Below are positions 2-56,189 of a stretch of DNA of 62,705 nt, in pieces. The notes beneath the pieces were generated by a model, which searched no databases, had not been told where the DNA came from, and saw only the letters and a program-made list of their open reading frames with translations. The position numbers and the translations under genes were made by a program. Positions within the stretch are counted from its first letter, which is position 1; each line of letters begins with the position of its first letter. The stretch comes from Nitrospirota bacterium (GTDB lineage Bacteria; Nitrospirota; JACRHL01), in the NCBI GenBank assembly GCA_029881725.1, contig JAOUMB010000014.1, positions 1 to 62,705 of the forward strand, read 5' to 3'.

Positions 2-1600
2 CCGCAGCGGGCAGCCATCTTTCGCGCCGGGGGTCACCAGCAACACGCACTGATCGATCTGAACCGCTACTTTGTGCTGGTGCTCAATGACGACCCGAGT
101 ATCAGCGTCATCGACCCGATGCTGGGCATGGCCGGGATCACCAAGCTGTATGCCCAGATCAACCTGTTCGCCCCTGGTGCCGACTGGGTGAAGGGCGATG
201 AGGACCGGGCCCTGTATGTGACCATGCCCACCGCCGATCAGGTGGCGTTTGTGGATGCGGTGCGTTACAAAACGAAAATCAGCGTGGACGCCGGGGACAT
301 GCCCATGCGCCTGATGTTGCACCCGGACGAGACCCGCCTGTGGGTGGGCAACGACAGCCCCAATGCAGACAAGAGCGGCGTCACCGTGCTGGACGCCAAA
401 ACCGGCCGCAAGCTGAAGTTCATCGCCACCGGCGCCGGACACCACGAAATGGCCTTCGCCGCCGCCGGGCGGTACGTGTTCGTCACCAACCGGAAGGCGG
501 GAACCGTCACCGTCATTCATACCGACACCTATCAAAAGGTGTCCGAGATCGCTACCGGCCCGATGCCCATCTCCATCGCGCACGCCGCCGATACAGGCCG
601 GGTGTATGTGGCCGACGGCCAGACCGGCGACATTGCCGCCATCGACACCGAAACCCTCACTGTAGTGTCCCGGGTACGGGACGAACCGGGACTGGGCCCC
701 ATGCAGATCACTCCTGACGGTCGCTTCGGCATGGTACTCAACACCCTGGCCGACAAGGTGGTGGTGTTCGACGCGGACAGCGGCGCCATGCGCCACCACT
801 TCGGGGTGGGCAAACGTCCGTTCCAGCTTTCCTTCACCGAAAACTTCGCCTACGTGCGCGCCATTGAAACCGAGCAGGTCACCCTAATCAATCTGGGAGA
901 ACTGGGTTCCGAAAGCACGCCCCCCACCACCATGTTCGGCGCCGGCAGCGCCGTGGGTGACTGGAGCGAGGCCATCACCCTGGCCCCCAGCATGACCCCG
1001 GCGGCGCGCGAGGCCGCTTCCCTGGTGGTCAACCGGGCCGACAACACGGTTTATTACTACATGGAGGGCATGTCCGCACCGATGGGCAACTTCCGCAACT
1101 ACGGCCACCGCCCGCGCGCCGTGCTGACCGTGGACCGCATGCTCAAGGAGCGCGAGGCCGGGCGCTACTCCGCCCCGATCACCCTGCCGGCTGGAGGAGA
1201 ATACGAACTCATCCTGCAAACCTTTGAGCCGAACCTGACCCACTGCTTCCCGTTCACCGTAATCTCCAACACCCCGGAGACGGAGGCATTGGAAGCCAGG
1301 TTCATCGAACCACCCACCGCGGTCTATCCCGGCGGCAAGGTCACCGTGCGATTTCAGATTGTCGGCTACGAGACCGGCACCGTGCACACCGGCCTGAGCG
1401 GGGCCCGCGCCATGGTCGTCCGCCTTCCCGGAAGCGGCCGTACGGTGGTGGAAGCACACGTGAACGCCGACGGGGTATTTACCGCCGACCTGCCGGTGCC
1501 GTTTGCGGGTGCCTATCAGGTGCAAGTGGCGGTGCCAGAACTAGGGATCGGTTTTGGCGACCTGATCGGCATCAGCTTCATGGCCCGCCTGGGTCCCTAA
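2..1600 (+). CDS. YVTN-type beta-propeller protein, 5' end outside the window
   Basis: The reading frame is open from the first bases of the window, so the true start lies upstream. The visible GTG at 74 is only internal. At least 532 residues are present. The first two thirds contain repeated propeller-blade motifs of the YVTN / cytochrome d1-like type (for example LYVTMPTADQVAFVD, YVFVTNRKAGTVTVI, VYVADGQTGDIAAID). The last 150 residues look like one or two beta-sandwich domains. Proteins of this build are usually periplasmic or surface exposed. The cytochrome c lipoprotein gene 43 bp downstream on the same strand suggests a shared redox role, which is inference. The signal peptide cannot be seen. 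No haem-binding CXXCH is present in the visible part, so a true cytochrome d1 nitrite reductase is not supported. Confidence 0.8.
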   Translation, partial: PQRAAIFRAGGHQQHALIDLNRYFVLVLNDDPSISVIDPMLGMAGITKLYAQINLFAPGADWVKGDEDRALYVTMPTADQVAFVDAVRYKTKISVDAGDMPMRLMLHPDETRLWVGNDSPNADKSGVTVLDAKTGRKLKFIATGAGHHEMAFAAAGRYVFVTNRKAGTVTVIHTDTYQKVSEIATGPMPISIAHAADTGRVYVADGQTGDIAAIDTETLTVVSRVRDEPGLGPMQITPDGRFGMVLNTLADKVVVFDADSGAMRHHFGVGKRPFQLSFTENFAYVRAIETEQVTLINLGELGSESTPPTTMFGAGSAVGDWSEAITLAPSMTPAAREAASLVVNRADNTVYYYMEGMSAPMGNFRNYGHRPRAVLTVDRMLKEREAGRYSAPITLPAGGEYELILQTFEPNLTHCFPFTVISNTPETEALEARFIEPPTAVYPGGKVTVRFQIVGYETGTVHTGLSGARAMVVRLPGSGRTVVEAHVNADGVFTADLPVPFAGAYQVQVAVPELGIGFGDLIGISFMARLGP

Positions 1601-1611
1601 ACATGGCTCCG

Positions 1612-1662
1612 GGACGGCAATCCGTGGCACACTGGCTGCCGCCATGCCACGGATTGCCGTCC
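1612..1662. repeat. 18-bp perfect inverted repeat enclosing a start codon
   Basis: The left arm GGACGGCAATCCGTGGCA (1612-1629) is an exact reverse complement of the right arm at 1645-1662, with a 15-nt loop. The ATG of the downstream cytochrome gene (1644-1646) sits at the loop/stem junction. In mRNA this would form a very stable hairpin over the translation start. There is no T-run, so it is not a standard terminator. Confidence 0.9.
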
Positions 1663-2021
1663 ATCTGCTGATTCTTGCCGCGACGCTTGCCAGCGCCTGC
1701 ACCCCCTCCGGCGATGGGCCATCGTCCGCACCCGAAGGCCGCGTCCTGCTTGGCGAACAGGGGTGTCTGAGTTGCCACGCCATGCAGGGGCAGGGGGGCA
1801 ACATGGGACCGGAACTGGGCTCGGAACTGGCTGCGCGGGGGGAAGAAACCCTGTTCGCCTATTTGCGCGACCCGAAAAACATCAACGTCTACCCCGGCAA
1901 CGGCCATGATGCCTTCACGGCCTTGAGTGAAGCTCAGGCACGGGAGATTGCCCGGTATCTATCCGGCCTGACCGTGTCCAGCCATTACCAGGGGCCAGCT
2001 CCTCCCCGGCCGCCGCAATAA
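1644..2021 (+). CDS. Monohaem cytochrome c lipoprotein
   Basis: A 125-residue protein. The N-terminal hydrophobic segment ends in LASAC, a plausible lipobox with the lipidated Cys at residue 19. A single haem-attachment motif CLSCH lies at residues 41-45, in the typical class I context GEQGCLSCH. It should be a small electron-transfer cytochrome anchored to a membrane in the periplasm. Class I cytochromes usually carry an axial Met just before the C-terminal helix. Here the equivalent place reads NGHDAFTALSEAQ, with His where Met is expected, so bis-His ligation is possible (inference). The gene follows the propeller gene by 43 bp, suggesting co-transcription. No Shine-Dalgarno is evident, and the start is buried in the inverted repeat at 1612-1662. 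Confidence 0.85.
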   Translation: MPRIAVHLLILAATLASACTPSGDGPSSAPEGRVLLGEQGCLSCHAMQGQGGNMGPELGSELAARGEETLFAYLRDPKNINVYPGNGHDAFTALSEAQAREIARYLSGLTVSSHYQGPAPPRPPQ

Positions 2022-2030
2022 AACGCCCCG

Positions 2031-2831
2031 CTACGGGAGGGTGACCCGCTCCGGACAGGTGTAGACGTTCATCCGGTCGCCGCGCACAAAACCGACCAGG
2101 GTCAGGTCCAGGGTTTGGGCCAGTTGCACGGAAAAGGTGGTGGGGGCATTGCGCGAAATGATCAGCGGAACCCGCTGCCGGGCACATTTGAGGGCGATCT
2201 CGCTGGAAATCCGCCCGCTGGACAACATGATTTTTCCCGCCGGGTCGATCCCCTCCAGCAGGCAGCGCCCGAACACCTTGTCCACCGCATTATGCCGGCC
2301 CAGATCCTCGCAGAATACCTCGAGCCCGTCCCCATCCCACAGCATGGCGGAGTGCACCCCGCCGGTGTCCCGATAGGTTTCGGAGCGGTGAATGAAGTCA
2401 CGAATCCTGGCAGAAATGCGCCCGGCGGACAGGGTGGGACCGGCGGGCAACGATTCCATTTCGGCCACGTCGCGGATGAAGGTATAGGTCTGACCCTTGC
2501 CGCAGCCGGAGGTAATCGTGCCCTTGCGCTCCCCGATAAACGGCGAAAGATCCACCCGCTCCGACACGGTGAGCCGCACGATGCCCCGCCCCGCCTCATA
2601 GCGGGCGGAAAGCAGGTCATCCGGATGTTTTAACACCCCCTCCCCGAGCAGAAACCCCACCGCCATCGCCTTGATGTGGGTGGGGCTGCATAGCAGGGTG
2701 GCCACCTCGATGCGATTCACAAACAGGGTGATCACGGTCTCCACCGCCACCGGGTCGTCCACGCGGGCGGCGTTTCCGGCCTGGATGCGCACAATCGGGT
2801 AGCTGCGGATGGGGGGCTGACCGGTATCCAT
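2031..2831 (-). CDS. fdhD: FdhD, formate dehydrogenase accessory sulfurtransferase
   Basis: FdhD moves sulfur from the cysteine desulfurase IscS to the molybdenum cofactor of formate dehydrogenase, making the enzyme active. The 266-residue product matches the family in length and in blocks such as TLFVNRIEVATLLCSP, AMAVGFLLGEGVL and CEDLGRHNAVDKVFG. I chose the ATG at 2831; an in-frame TTG at 2870 would add 13 residues. The sulfur-carrying CXXC of E. coli FdhD is replaced by TSGCGKGQ, so only one of the two cysteines is present. It converges with the cytochrome gene, with 9 bp between the two stops. The NuoF/FdsB-like gene 2 kb away fits a formate dehydrogenase context, but no catalytic subunit is in the window. 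Confidence 0.9.
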   Translation of the reverse strand: MDTGQPPIRSYPIVRIQAGNAARVDDPVAVETVITLFVNRIEVATLLCSPTHIKAMAVGFLLGEGVLKHPDDLLSARYEAGRGIVRLTVSERVDLSPFIGERKGTITSGCGKGQTYTFIRDVAEMESLPAGPTLSAGRISARIRDFIHRSETYRDTGGVHSAMLWDGDGLEVFCEDLGRHNAVDKVFGRCLLEGIDPAGKIMLSSGRISSEIALKCARQRVPLIISRNAPTTFSVQLAQTLDLTLVGFVRGDRMNVYTCPERVTLP

Positions 2832-2934
2832 TGCCACCGCATGGTAAAGGCCGAAAGACGCCCCACACAAGAGTTGTTGCGCACCCGTTCACAACTCCAT
2901 GTATGATATGATCGAAATTGGTCAGGGATTAATC

Positions 2935-24507: not shown

Positions 24508-25074
24508 TCAGCCCAAGGGATGCACGCGATTTTGTGCCGCGAGCAATCCCTCCTTGAGCAATGTTTCGGCGGCATCCGCCGCCCGTTCCACGCCGTCGGC
24601 CACATGGGGCCGCTCTTCGGGTGTAAATCGCTTTAGCACGTAGTCGCGAACCGCCTCGCCTTCGGGTGGGCGGCCGATGCCAACCCGCACCCGGGCAAAT
24701 GCGCGCGTACCGAAGGATTGGGCGATGTCGCGAATGCCGCGATGCCCGCCGTCGCCCCCCTCGTCCTTGACCCGCACCCGCCCGGCGGGCAGGTCCAGAT
24801 CGTCATGCACCACCACCAGATTGTCCATCTGGCGGCCAAGCCTGGCCCACAGGCCACGCACCGCTTGGGAACTGGTGTTCATATACACCTGGCTGATCGC
24901 CAGGTAGGCAGGCTCGCCCGCCACCTGTCCCTGGCCACCAATGTAGGTGTCCTTGCGGTCGGACAGGGAAATTCCCCACCGGTCGGCAATCCGCGCCACA
25001 ACATCTGCGCCGATGTTGTGGCGGGTGCCGGCATATCGCGGACCGGGATTCGCCAGCCCAAGAATAACCTTCAA
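24508..25074 (-). CDS. pth: Peptidyl-tRNA hydrolase
   Basis: 188 residues. The enzyme frees tRNA from prematurely released peptidyl-tRNA. Family blocks are clear: VILGLANPGPRYAGTRHNIGADVV with the catalytic His, VHDDLDLPAGRVRVKDEGGDGGHRGIRDI with the catalytic Asp, and FARVRVGIGRPP. It lies between rplY (15 bp upstream) and ychF on the same strand, as in many beta- and gammaproteobacteria. Confidence 0.97.
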   Translation of the reverse strand: MKVILGLANPGPRYAGTRHNIGADVVARIADRWGISLSDRKDTYIGGQGQVAGEPAYLAISQVYMNTSSQAVRGLWARLGRQMDNLVVVHDDLDLPAGRVRVKDEGGDGGHRGIRDIAQSFGTRAFARVRVGIGRPPEGEAVRDYVLKRFTPEERPHVADGVERAADAAETLLKEGLLAAQNRVHPLG

Positions 25075-55046: not shown

Positions 55047-55133
55047 CTATCCGGCCAGTACCGGGACCGGAATGCTCATGACCACCACCAGCAGTACGGC
55101 CCCCAGCCAGGTCAACAGATCCTCGGATGTCAC
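55047..55133 (-). CDS. 28-residue coupled membrane ORF
   Basis: A GTG overlaps the stop of the AMIN/FliO-like gene (GTGA). The 28-residue product is MTSEDLLTWLGAVLLVVVMS followed by IPVPVLAG, a single hydrophobic helix. The overlap and clean hydrophobicity are suggestive, but a frame this short can arise by chance. Confidence 0.3.
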   Translation of the reverse strand: MTSEDLLTWLGAVLLVVVMSIPVPVLAG

Positions 55134-56068
55134 GACGCAATCTCCATATTTTTTTGTTTCGGGCCGGAAAGAGCACTCCGCCGATGCAGCAAACGCACAT
55201 CGGTTTCGGCAAAGGAAAACCGCGGTGTGTGCAACACCGCCTCGGGAATCAGGCTGGAAGTGGCGCTTGCCGGGTGCAGTTCCCCCTCTCCACCGAACAT
55301 CAAGGCCGCGTCCACGTCCGACGCGCCCAACGCATCCAGGTCGGCCACCAGGCGCATCCCGGCGGGTTCCATGCTCACCAGCAGGCGCCGGTCATCGGTT
55401 TCCACCAGCAGCAGCCGCCGGCCATGGCCCACGTTCAATTCCGAGCGCACCTTCAAATTGCCGATGCCCCGACTCCGGCGGCGGGCCAGCAACGACCGGG
55501 CCAGCACACCGCCCAGCAGGAACGCCACCAGCACCGCCGCCATGGCGACGATGGCTTCCCGGCTGGGAAGGTTGTTCCGCAGATCGGCCGCCAGCGCCAT
55601 CGGCCCGGAGGCCACCGGCTGCGGCGCGGACTGCACGGCGGACTGGGCAGCATCCATCGGCAGCAGTTCTTGCCCCACGAACAGGCGCAGTCCGCTGTCG
55701 GTCATGTCCACCCGGATAGCCCCTTCCAACTGGCGGGCATCAAAGTTGTCGGTTTGCAGGCGCACCACCACCTGCTCCGGTGCAATCTGCCGGGCGATAA
55801 CCCGCGACAGCAGCGGATGGCGCACGTCGCGCACCTGCCGCGCCCCGTCCATCACCACCGGGGACAGGGTCATCTGCACCGAGTGGCCGCTGAACGAAAG
55901 CTGGTAATCCGCTTCCCCGGAAAGACCGAAACCGATCTCCAGCACCGCGTCCCGCTCCACAACGGCGATGGACGAAAGGTGCACCGGCATGGCCGCATCG
56001 GCCAGCGTGGGCGCCAGCATCAGCAGACTTAAAAAAATTCCCCGTACCATTCCCCGTTTTTTGTCCAT
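55130..56068 (-). CDS. AMIN-like / FliO-like membrane protein
   Basis: 312 residues. A signal peptide (MVRGIFLSLLMLAPTLADA) is followed by a beta-rich AMIN-like region of about 100 residues (HLSSIAVVERDAVLEIGFGLSG ... VIARQIAPEQVVVRLQTDN). Next come a linker, a membrane helix (AIVAMAAVLVAFLLGGVLARSLL), a basic RRRSRG and a cytoplasmic segment. That segment (LKVRSELNVGHGRRLLLVETDDRRLLVSMEPAGMRLVADL) resembles FliO of the flagellar export gate. No other flagellar gene is nearby. A perfect sigma-54 promoter 106 bp upstream supports a flagellar or motility role. Function is inferred. Confidence 0.7.
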   Translation of the reverse strand: MDKKRGMVRGIFLSLLMLAPTLADAAMPVHLSSIAVVERDAVLEIGFGLSGEADYQLSFSGHSVQMTLSPVVMDGARQVRDVRHPLLSRVIARQIAPEQVVVRLQTDNFDARQLEGAIRVDMTDSGLRLFVGQELLPMDAAQSAVQSAPQPVASGPMALAADLRNNLPSREAIVAMAAVLVAFLLGGVLARSLLARRRSRGIGNLKVRSELNVGHGRRLLLVETDDRRLLVSMEPAGMRLVADLDALGASDVDAALMFGGEGELHPASATSSLIPEAVLHTPRFSFAETDVRLLHRRSALSGPKQKNMEIAS

Positions 56069-56173: not shown

Positions 56174-56189
56174 AGCAACATACGTGCCA
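56174..56189 (-). promoter_or_regulatory. Perfect sigma-54 promoter of the FliO-like gene
   Basis: The minus strand reads TGGCACGTATGTTGCT: -24 TGGCACG and -12 TTGCT with exact spacing, matching the RpoN consensus fully. The predicted transcription start is near 56163, 95 bp before the ATG at 56068. Confidence 0.8.

Follow-up and report, generated by a model that had tools for sequence, protein, structure and literature searches.

A perfect inverted repeat with 18-bp arms separates the end of a beta-propeller gene from the start of a small c-type cytochrome gene in a Nitrospirota bacterium, and by its position it is one of the hairpins that this genome carries at the ends of its genes. The repeat is real, strong and locally unusual; it is of a known kind, and its function is unproven. 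As it stands, it is most likely a strong gene-end hairpin of an ordinary sort in an unusual placement. The DNA analyzed, referred to here as the window, is a complete contig (C3) of 62,705 nucleotides from a genome of 2.96 Mb with 65% GC content, and the features around the repeat are listed in Table 1.

Table 1. Features at and around the inverted repeat, in window coordinates
Feature	Position	Strand	Basis or remark
Beta-propeller (YNCE / cytochrome d1-like) protein, 3′ part	2..1600	+	Pfam PF21783, PF02239; contig starts inside the gene
Mini-ORF MAPGRQSVAHWLPPCHGLPSIC, 22 codons, spanning the whole hairpin	1603..1671	+	Translation; probably chance
5′ arm of the perfect inverted repeat	1612..1629	+	Begins 11 nt past the stop codon
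15-nt loop with inner 4-bp helix TGGC/GCCA	1630..1644	+	Ends on the A of the ATG
3′ arm	1645..1662	+	Doubles as the T-G of the ATG plus codons 2-6 (P R I A V) and a further base of the cytochrome gene
Small membrane-anchored c-type cytochrome (CxxCH) with signal peptide and likely lipobox LASAC	1644..2021	+	Pfam PF00034
fdhD (formate dehydrogenase accessory), convergent neighbor	2031..2870	-	Pfam PF02634; also neighbors the propeller gene in G003

The two arms (1612-1629, GGACGGCAATCCGTGGCA, and 1645-1662, TGCCACGGATTGCCGTCC) are exact reverse complements with 18/18 pairs (100%), and the loop of 15 nt that separates them ends at 1644 on the A of the ATG, just as an earlier sequence-only reading of this stretch had described. 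No longer perfect inverted repeat is present in the window when gaps of up to 60 nt are allowed. Folding of the RNA from 1590 to 1690 gives -49.8 kcal/mol compared with a mean of -33.7 over shuffled sequences (sd 2.9; z = -5.6), a stability that none of 200 shuffles matched, and the inner helix within the loop leaves the A of the ATG paired as well. At 37 C the predicted probability that the ATG is unpaired is 0.02, which supports the earlier proposal that the start codon is hidden in any RNA containing both arms, and no Shine-Dalgarno sequence is visible in the 22 nt inspected ahead of it, again as proposed. The same reading had suggested heat as one means of opening the stem. However, the ATG stays closed throughout 10-70 C, with an unpaired probability of at most 0.07 at 70 C, and an RNA thermometer is therefore ruled out. 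Comparison with described RNA families and riboswitches returned no match, the only hit being a miRNA-like hairpin at 29.4 bits, far below its gathering score of 90 bits.

The propeller gene ends in a TAA stop codon at 1598-1600, and a full-length homologue of its protein from the same family is 55% identical. Its first part is found on a second contig (C33), with a 2219-aa protein encoded upstream (L050:856-7515, minus strand), and positions 1-343 of the window overlap the end of C33 (L050) with two mismatches. C3 and C33 are probably adjacent but were left unjoined, perhaps through strain variation. Joining them is supported by a genome of the same family (G003), because it shows a comparable gene order: a 2159-aa frame at the place of the 2219-aa protein, then the propeller gene, an oppositely oriented fdhD and the gene for a hybrid histidine kinase. 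The 2159-aa frame is taken as the same oxidase on the basis of its place, length and translation, not of a profile search. Against the model of the manganese-oxidizing multicopper oxidase MnxG the 2219-aa protein scores 2124 bits, and because this is below the curated cut-off of 3100 we call it MnxG-like only. Since the propeller gene follows this MnxG-like multicopper oxidase, the hairpin is located in a likely manganese-oxidation gene cluster. The arrangement of an MnxG-like oxidase followed by a beta-propeller occurs here in a Nitrospirota family with few genomes, and the order in G003 is comparable.

Downstream of the repeat, the cytochrome gene is genuine, as previously thought: its product matches PF00034 with 26.7 bits (cut-off 21.3), and residues 24-119 share 55% identity with a relative in another genome of the family (G001). 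The lipobox was judged by eye on the translation, from which a lipoprotein signal appears likely. An assembly artefact is an unlikely source of the repeat in the one assembly at hand, because both genes continue normally past the 51 bp.

Whether such a repeat could arise by chance was assessed with a first-order Markov null of 2.5 Mb, in which 18 perfect repeats of at least 12 bp were found and none longer than 15 bp. Extrapolated from this null by a factor of about 0.27 per added pair (our own extrapolation), the expected number of 18-bp repeats is some 2e-4 for a window of this size and 0.01 for the 2.96-Mb genome, under a model that leaves out template-switch mutation, a process able to make perfect repeats in one step. 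The earlier reading had placed the repeat far beyond chance for unselected sequence. However, improbability by chance is not evidence of function, because template switching yields perfect repeats in a single event (PMC8794818), and on selection, as on regulated opening, the sequence-only reading was too confident.

It is possible, if on the unlikely side, that the repeat is itself such a palindrome, neutral or nearly neutral, in which one template switch during replication copied the cytochrome start back into a short spacer or perfected an imperfect repeat. Consistent with this origin, both arms are perfect even though one is coding and the other is not, and the repeat occurs only once in the genome and in no relative examined. 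If this were its history, perfection would be a sign of youth and not of selection. However, the site 11 nt past a stop codon is the usual place of the strong hairpins of this genome, a preference that a random event would not have, and a newly closed start codon would be expected to do harm if the cytochrome is of importance.

A genome-wide search also revealed that the 18-bp repeat is single-copy, with no similar second copy; the near copies at 24981 and in L033 fall within what looks like coding sequence, at about the level of a reversed-pattern control. A mobile repeat or REP-like element, which would be repeated at many intergenic places, is therefore ruled out. Intercistronic hairpins that stabilize mRNA are known from REP/PU sequences in malEF and from the puf operon. 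Like these, the present hairpin lies between co-directional genes and would be expected to raise upstream over downstream expression, but it differs from them in being single-copy and in including the next start codon.

In a sample of 463 kb out of 2.96 Mb we found 21 perfect repeats of at least 12 bp (loop 3-60), compared with about 3 predicted by the null, and the window repeat is second in length among them; the gene-end hairpins of this genome reach 21 bp. When the ten longest short-loop repeats of the sample (13-21 bp, loops up to 15 nt) are considered, all nine of the others (9/9) lie downstream of a gene pointing into them, as assigned with a home-made simple gene finder, and most of the nine have terminator-like A/T tracts flanking the stem base. 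This gene finder set the cytochrome start at 1782, past the haem motif, and its start positions are not relied on. One of the nine, a 15-bp perfect hairpin at L113:13600-13635, has no T tract on either side and begins 5 nt past a stop codon. It lies in a gap of 47 bases between two convergent genes, 5 and 6 nt from their stops. Because nine other strong repeats sit at gene 3′ ends and the window repeat begins 11 nt past a stop, it belongs by position to the gene-end class. It is nevertheless an odd member, in that a T tract is missing and its 3′ arm codes for the next gene, and no other strong repeat in the sample extends into the beginning of a gene on its own strand.

The reading that we tentatively prefer, with a confidence that falls a little short of even, is a gene-end hairpin, either a terminator or an mRNA-stabilizing structure, with a 3′ arm made of codons 1-6 of the cytochrome gene that would shut translation of this gene on read-through RNA. 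The hairpin would form the gene end of the mnxG-like/propeller transcription unit: just past the propeller stop, the RNA would fold into the very stable 18-bp stem, which would either end the upstream mRNA or protect its 3′ end after Rho-dependent or partial termination. The 3′ arm would coincide with the first codons of the next gene by accident, so that in a read-through transcript the cytochrome start would be closed in the stem and little cytochrome would be made. What the analysis shows is the repeat, where it lies, how stable its fold is predicted to be and the tendency of this genome to put its strongest repeats at gene 3′ ends; a stop of transcription or of RNA decay at the hairpin, and the effect on the cytochrome, are what we infer.

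Measured against an intrinsic terminator, the hairpin has the stable GC-rich stem-loop (18 bp) shortly past the stop codon, but in place of a T-rich tract directly after the stem is ATCTGCTGATTC. Because of the missing tract it would be a poor classical intrinsic terminator by itself, and we file it as a gene-end hairpin only. However, a large survey of 1060 species, cited in PMC8355165, found no U stretch in about half of the best hairpins that directly follow stop codons, and 58-66% of the terminator hairpins predicted are no more than 20 nt from the stop (PMC8355165); since tract-less forms are this common, transcription could end here even with the tract missing, and L113:13600-13635 is a precedent for the form within the same genome. 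The window hairpin shares with these tract-less terminators and gene-end hairpins a stable, GC-rich stem less than 20 nt from the stop, but differs from them in its long stem of 18 bp without mismatch, its 15-nt loop and a 3′ arm that codes for the next, co-oriented gene. A terminator scan that accepts only loops of 3-8 nt with a T tract did not list it and would exclude it in any case. Besides the missing tract, further points argue against the gene-end reading. The run into a same-strand gene start is unique among the strong repeats of the sample, no sigma-70-like promoter was found for the cytochrome, although a terminator would cut that gene off from the operon, and the gene-end statistic rests on a gene finder of our own making.

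A homologue of the propeller gene is present in 19 of 396 genomes of the phylum, the source genome included. None of the others has the cytochrome at the junction within the 1.1-1.5 kb inspected downstream, L094 giving only a partial match; CxxCH motifs in several of them, about 0.57-0.83 kb past the propeller stop, belong to other proteins. In G003, where a multicopper oxidase, propeller, fdhD and kinase lie in the same order, the propeller junction is without the cytochrome and has instead, at +56 past the stop, a 14-bp hairpin of unrelated sequence followed by a T tract. This is a canonical terminator, and its presence after the propeller is in favor of the gene-end reading. In G001 an apparent tRNA gene precedes the cytochrome, whose start carries no hairpin. 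These two nearest half-tests, the G001 cytochrome and the G003 propeller junction, speak against conservation of the repeat. A protein scan of 84,980 species found no close relatives of the cytochrome, and a scan with a two-sequence alignment found only distant cytochromes and the G001 relative already known. Among the 396 phylum genomes and in the genome_contigs set no second genome with the same junction was found, and covariation therefore cannot be counted.

The lack of conservation also weighs against translational control as the role of the repeat, which we consider unlikely. Under such control the stem would keep the cytochrome start closed until it is opened, for example by a protein or by a ribosome that has terminated at 1600 and goes on to translate the mini-ORF. 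The closed state of the ATG is as expected for this, the start codon of the mini-ORF is only 2 nt past the propeller stop and its frame crosses the stem, and coupling through RNA unfolding at closed start sites is well documented (PMC12548453). However, a 22-codon frame after a chance ATG is itself expected (about 0.6 at this base composition, by our own estimate), the cytochrome ATG would be without a Shine-Dalgarno sequence even when opened, and thermosensing is excluded by the stability of the stem up to 70 C. Known start-sequestering hairpins in coupled genes, such as those of MS2, f1 and rpmI-rplT, likewise enclose the start codon in a stem that has to be opened (PMC12548453), but here there is no Shine-Dalgarno sequence and the ribosome arriving from upstream terminates ahead of the stem. 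In phage f1, an upstream stop well before the hairpin abolishes coupling, and structure just past a stop lowers it (PMC12548453). The propeller frame stops 11 nt short of the stem, only the chance-like mini-ORF enters it, and a ribosome terminating at 1600 would at most touch the stem base. Opening by a coupled ribosome, as had been suggested, is therefore doubtful: the mini-ORF could carry a ribosome through, but a frame of this kind is no surprise. Simple translational coupling is unlikely.

In IS10 and IS50, hairpins hide the transposase start in read-through RNA. The present stem resembles these in that it would form solely in RNA entering from upstream and would hide a start codon there, but it differs in that no mobile element is present and no promoter is seen between the arms. 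A switch by transcript origin in a manganese-oxidation operon, in which operon-long RNA keeps the cytochrome start closed and a near-leaderless RNA starting inside the 15-nt loop from an unrecognized type of promoter is translated, seems highly improbable; if true, it would uncouple the cytochrome from the oxidase.

Alternatively, the repeat could act as DNA, as the site of a dimeric regulator or as part of a promoter, which we regard as very improbable. In addition to its inverted symmetry, the end of the 5′ arm and the loop hold TGGCACACTGGCTGC, close to a sigma-54 -24/-12 site, and the pattern TGGCACN5YTGC occurs at 1625-1639. However, RNA from a sigma-54-like site here would start at about 1651, past the only usable start codon, and by this reasoning of our own a sigma-54 promoter at 1625-1639 is rejected even though the spacing fits. 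Moreover, exact 18-bp half-sites exceed what a regulator needs, and only one second copy exists at 2 or fewer mismatches, inside coding sequence, with none in the mnx contig. The pattern TGGCACN5YTGC occurs at three sites in the window compared with 0.5 expected. At 56175-56189 on the minus strand, TGGCACGTATGTTGC is a near-consensus sigma-54 promoter string roughly 100 nt upstream of the ORF at 55130-56068.

If a hairpin does shut the cytochrome start codon beside the MnxG-like oxidase, the level of this possible electron acceptor would be under post-transcriptional control, and such control would bear on the use of manganese by Nitrospirota.
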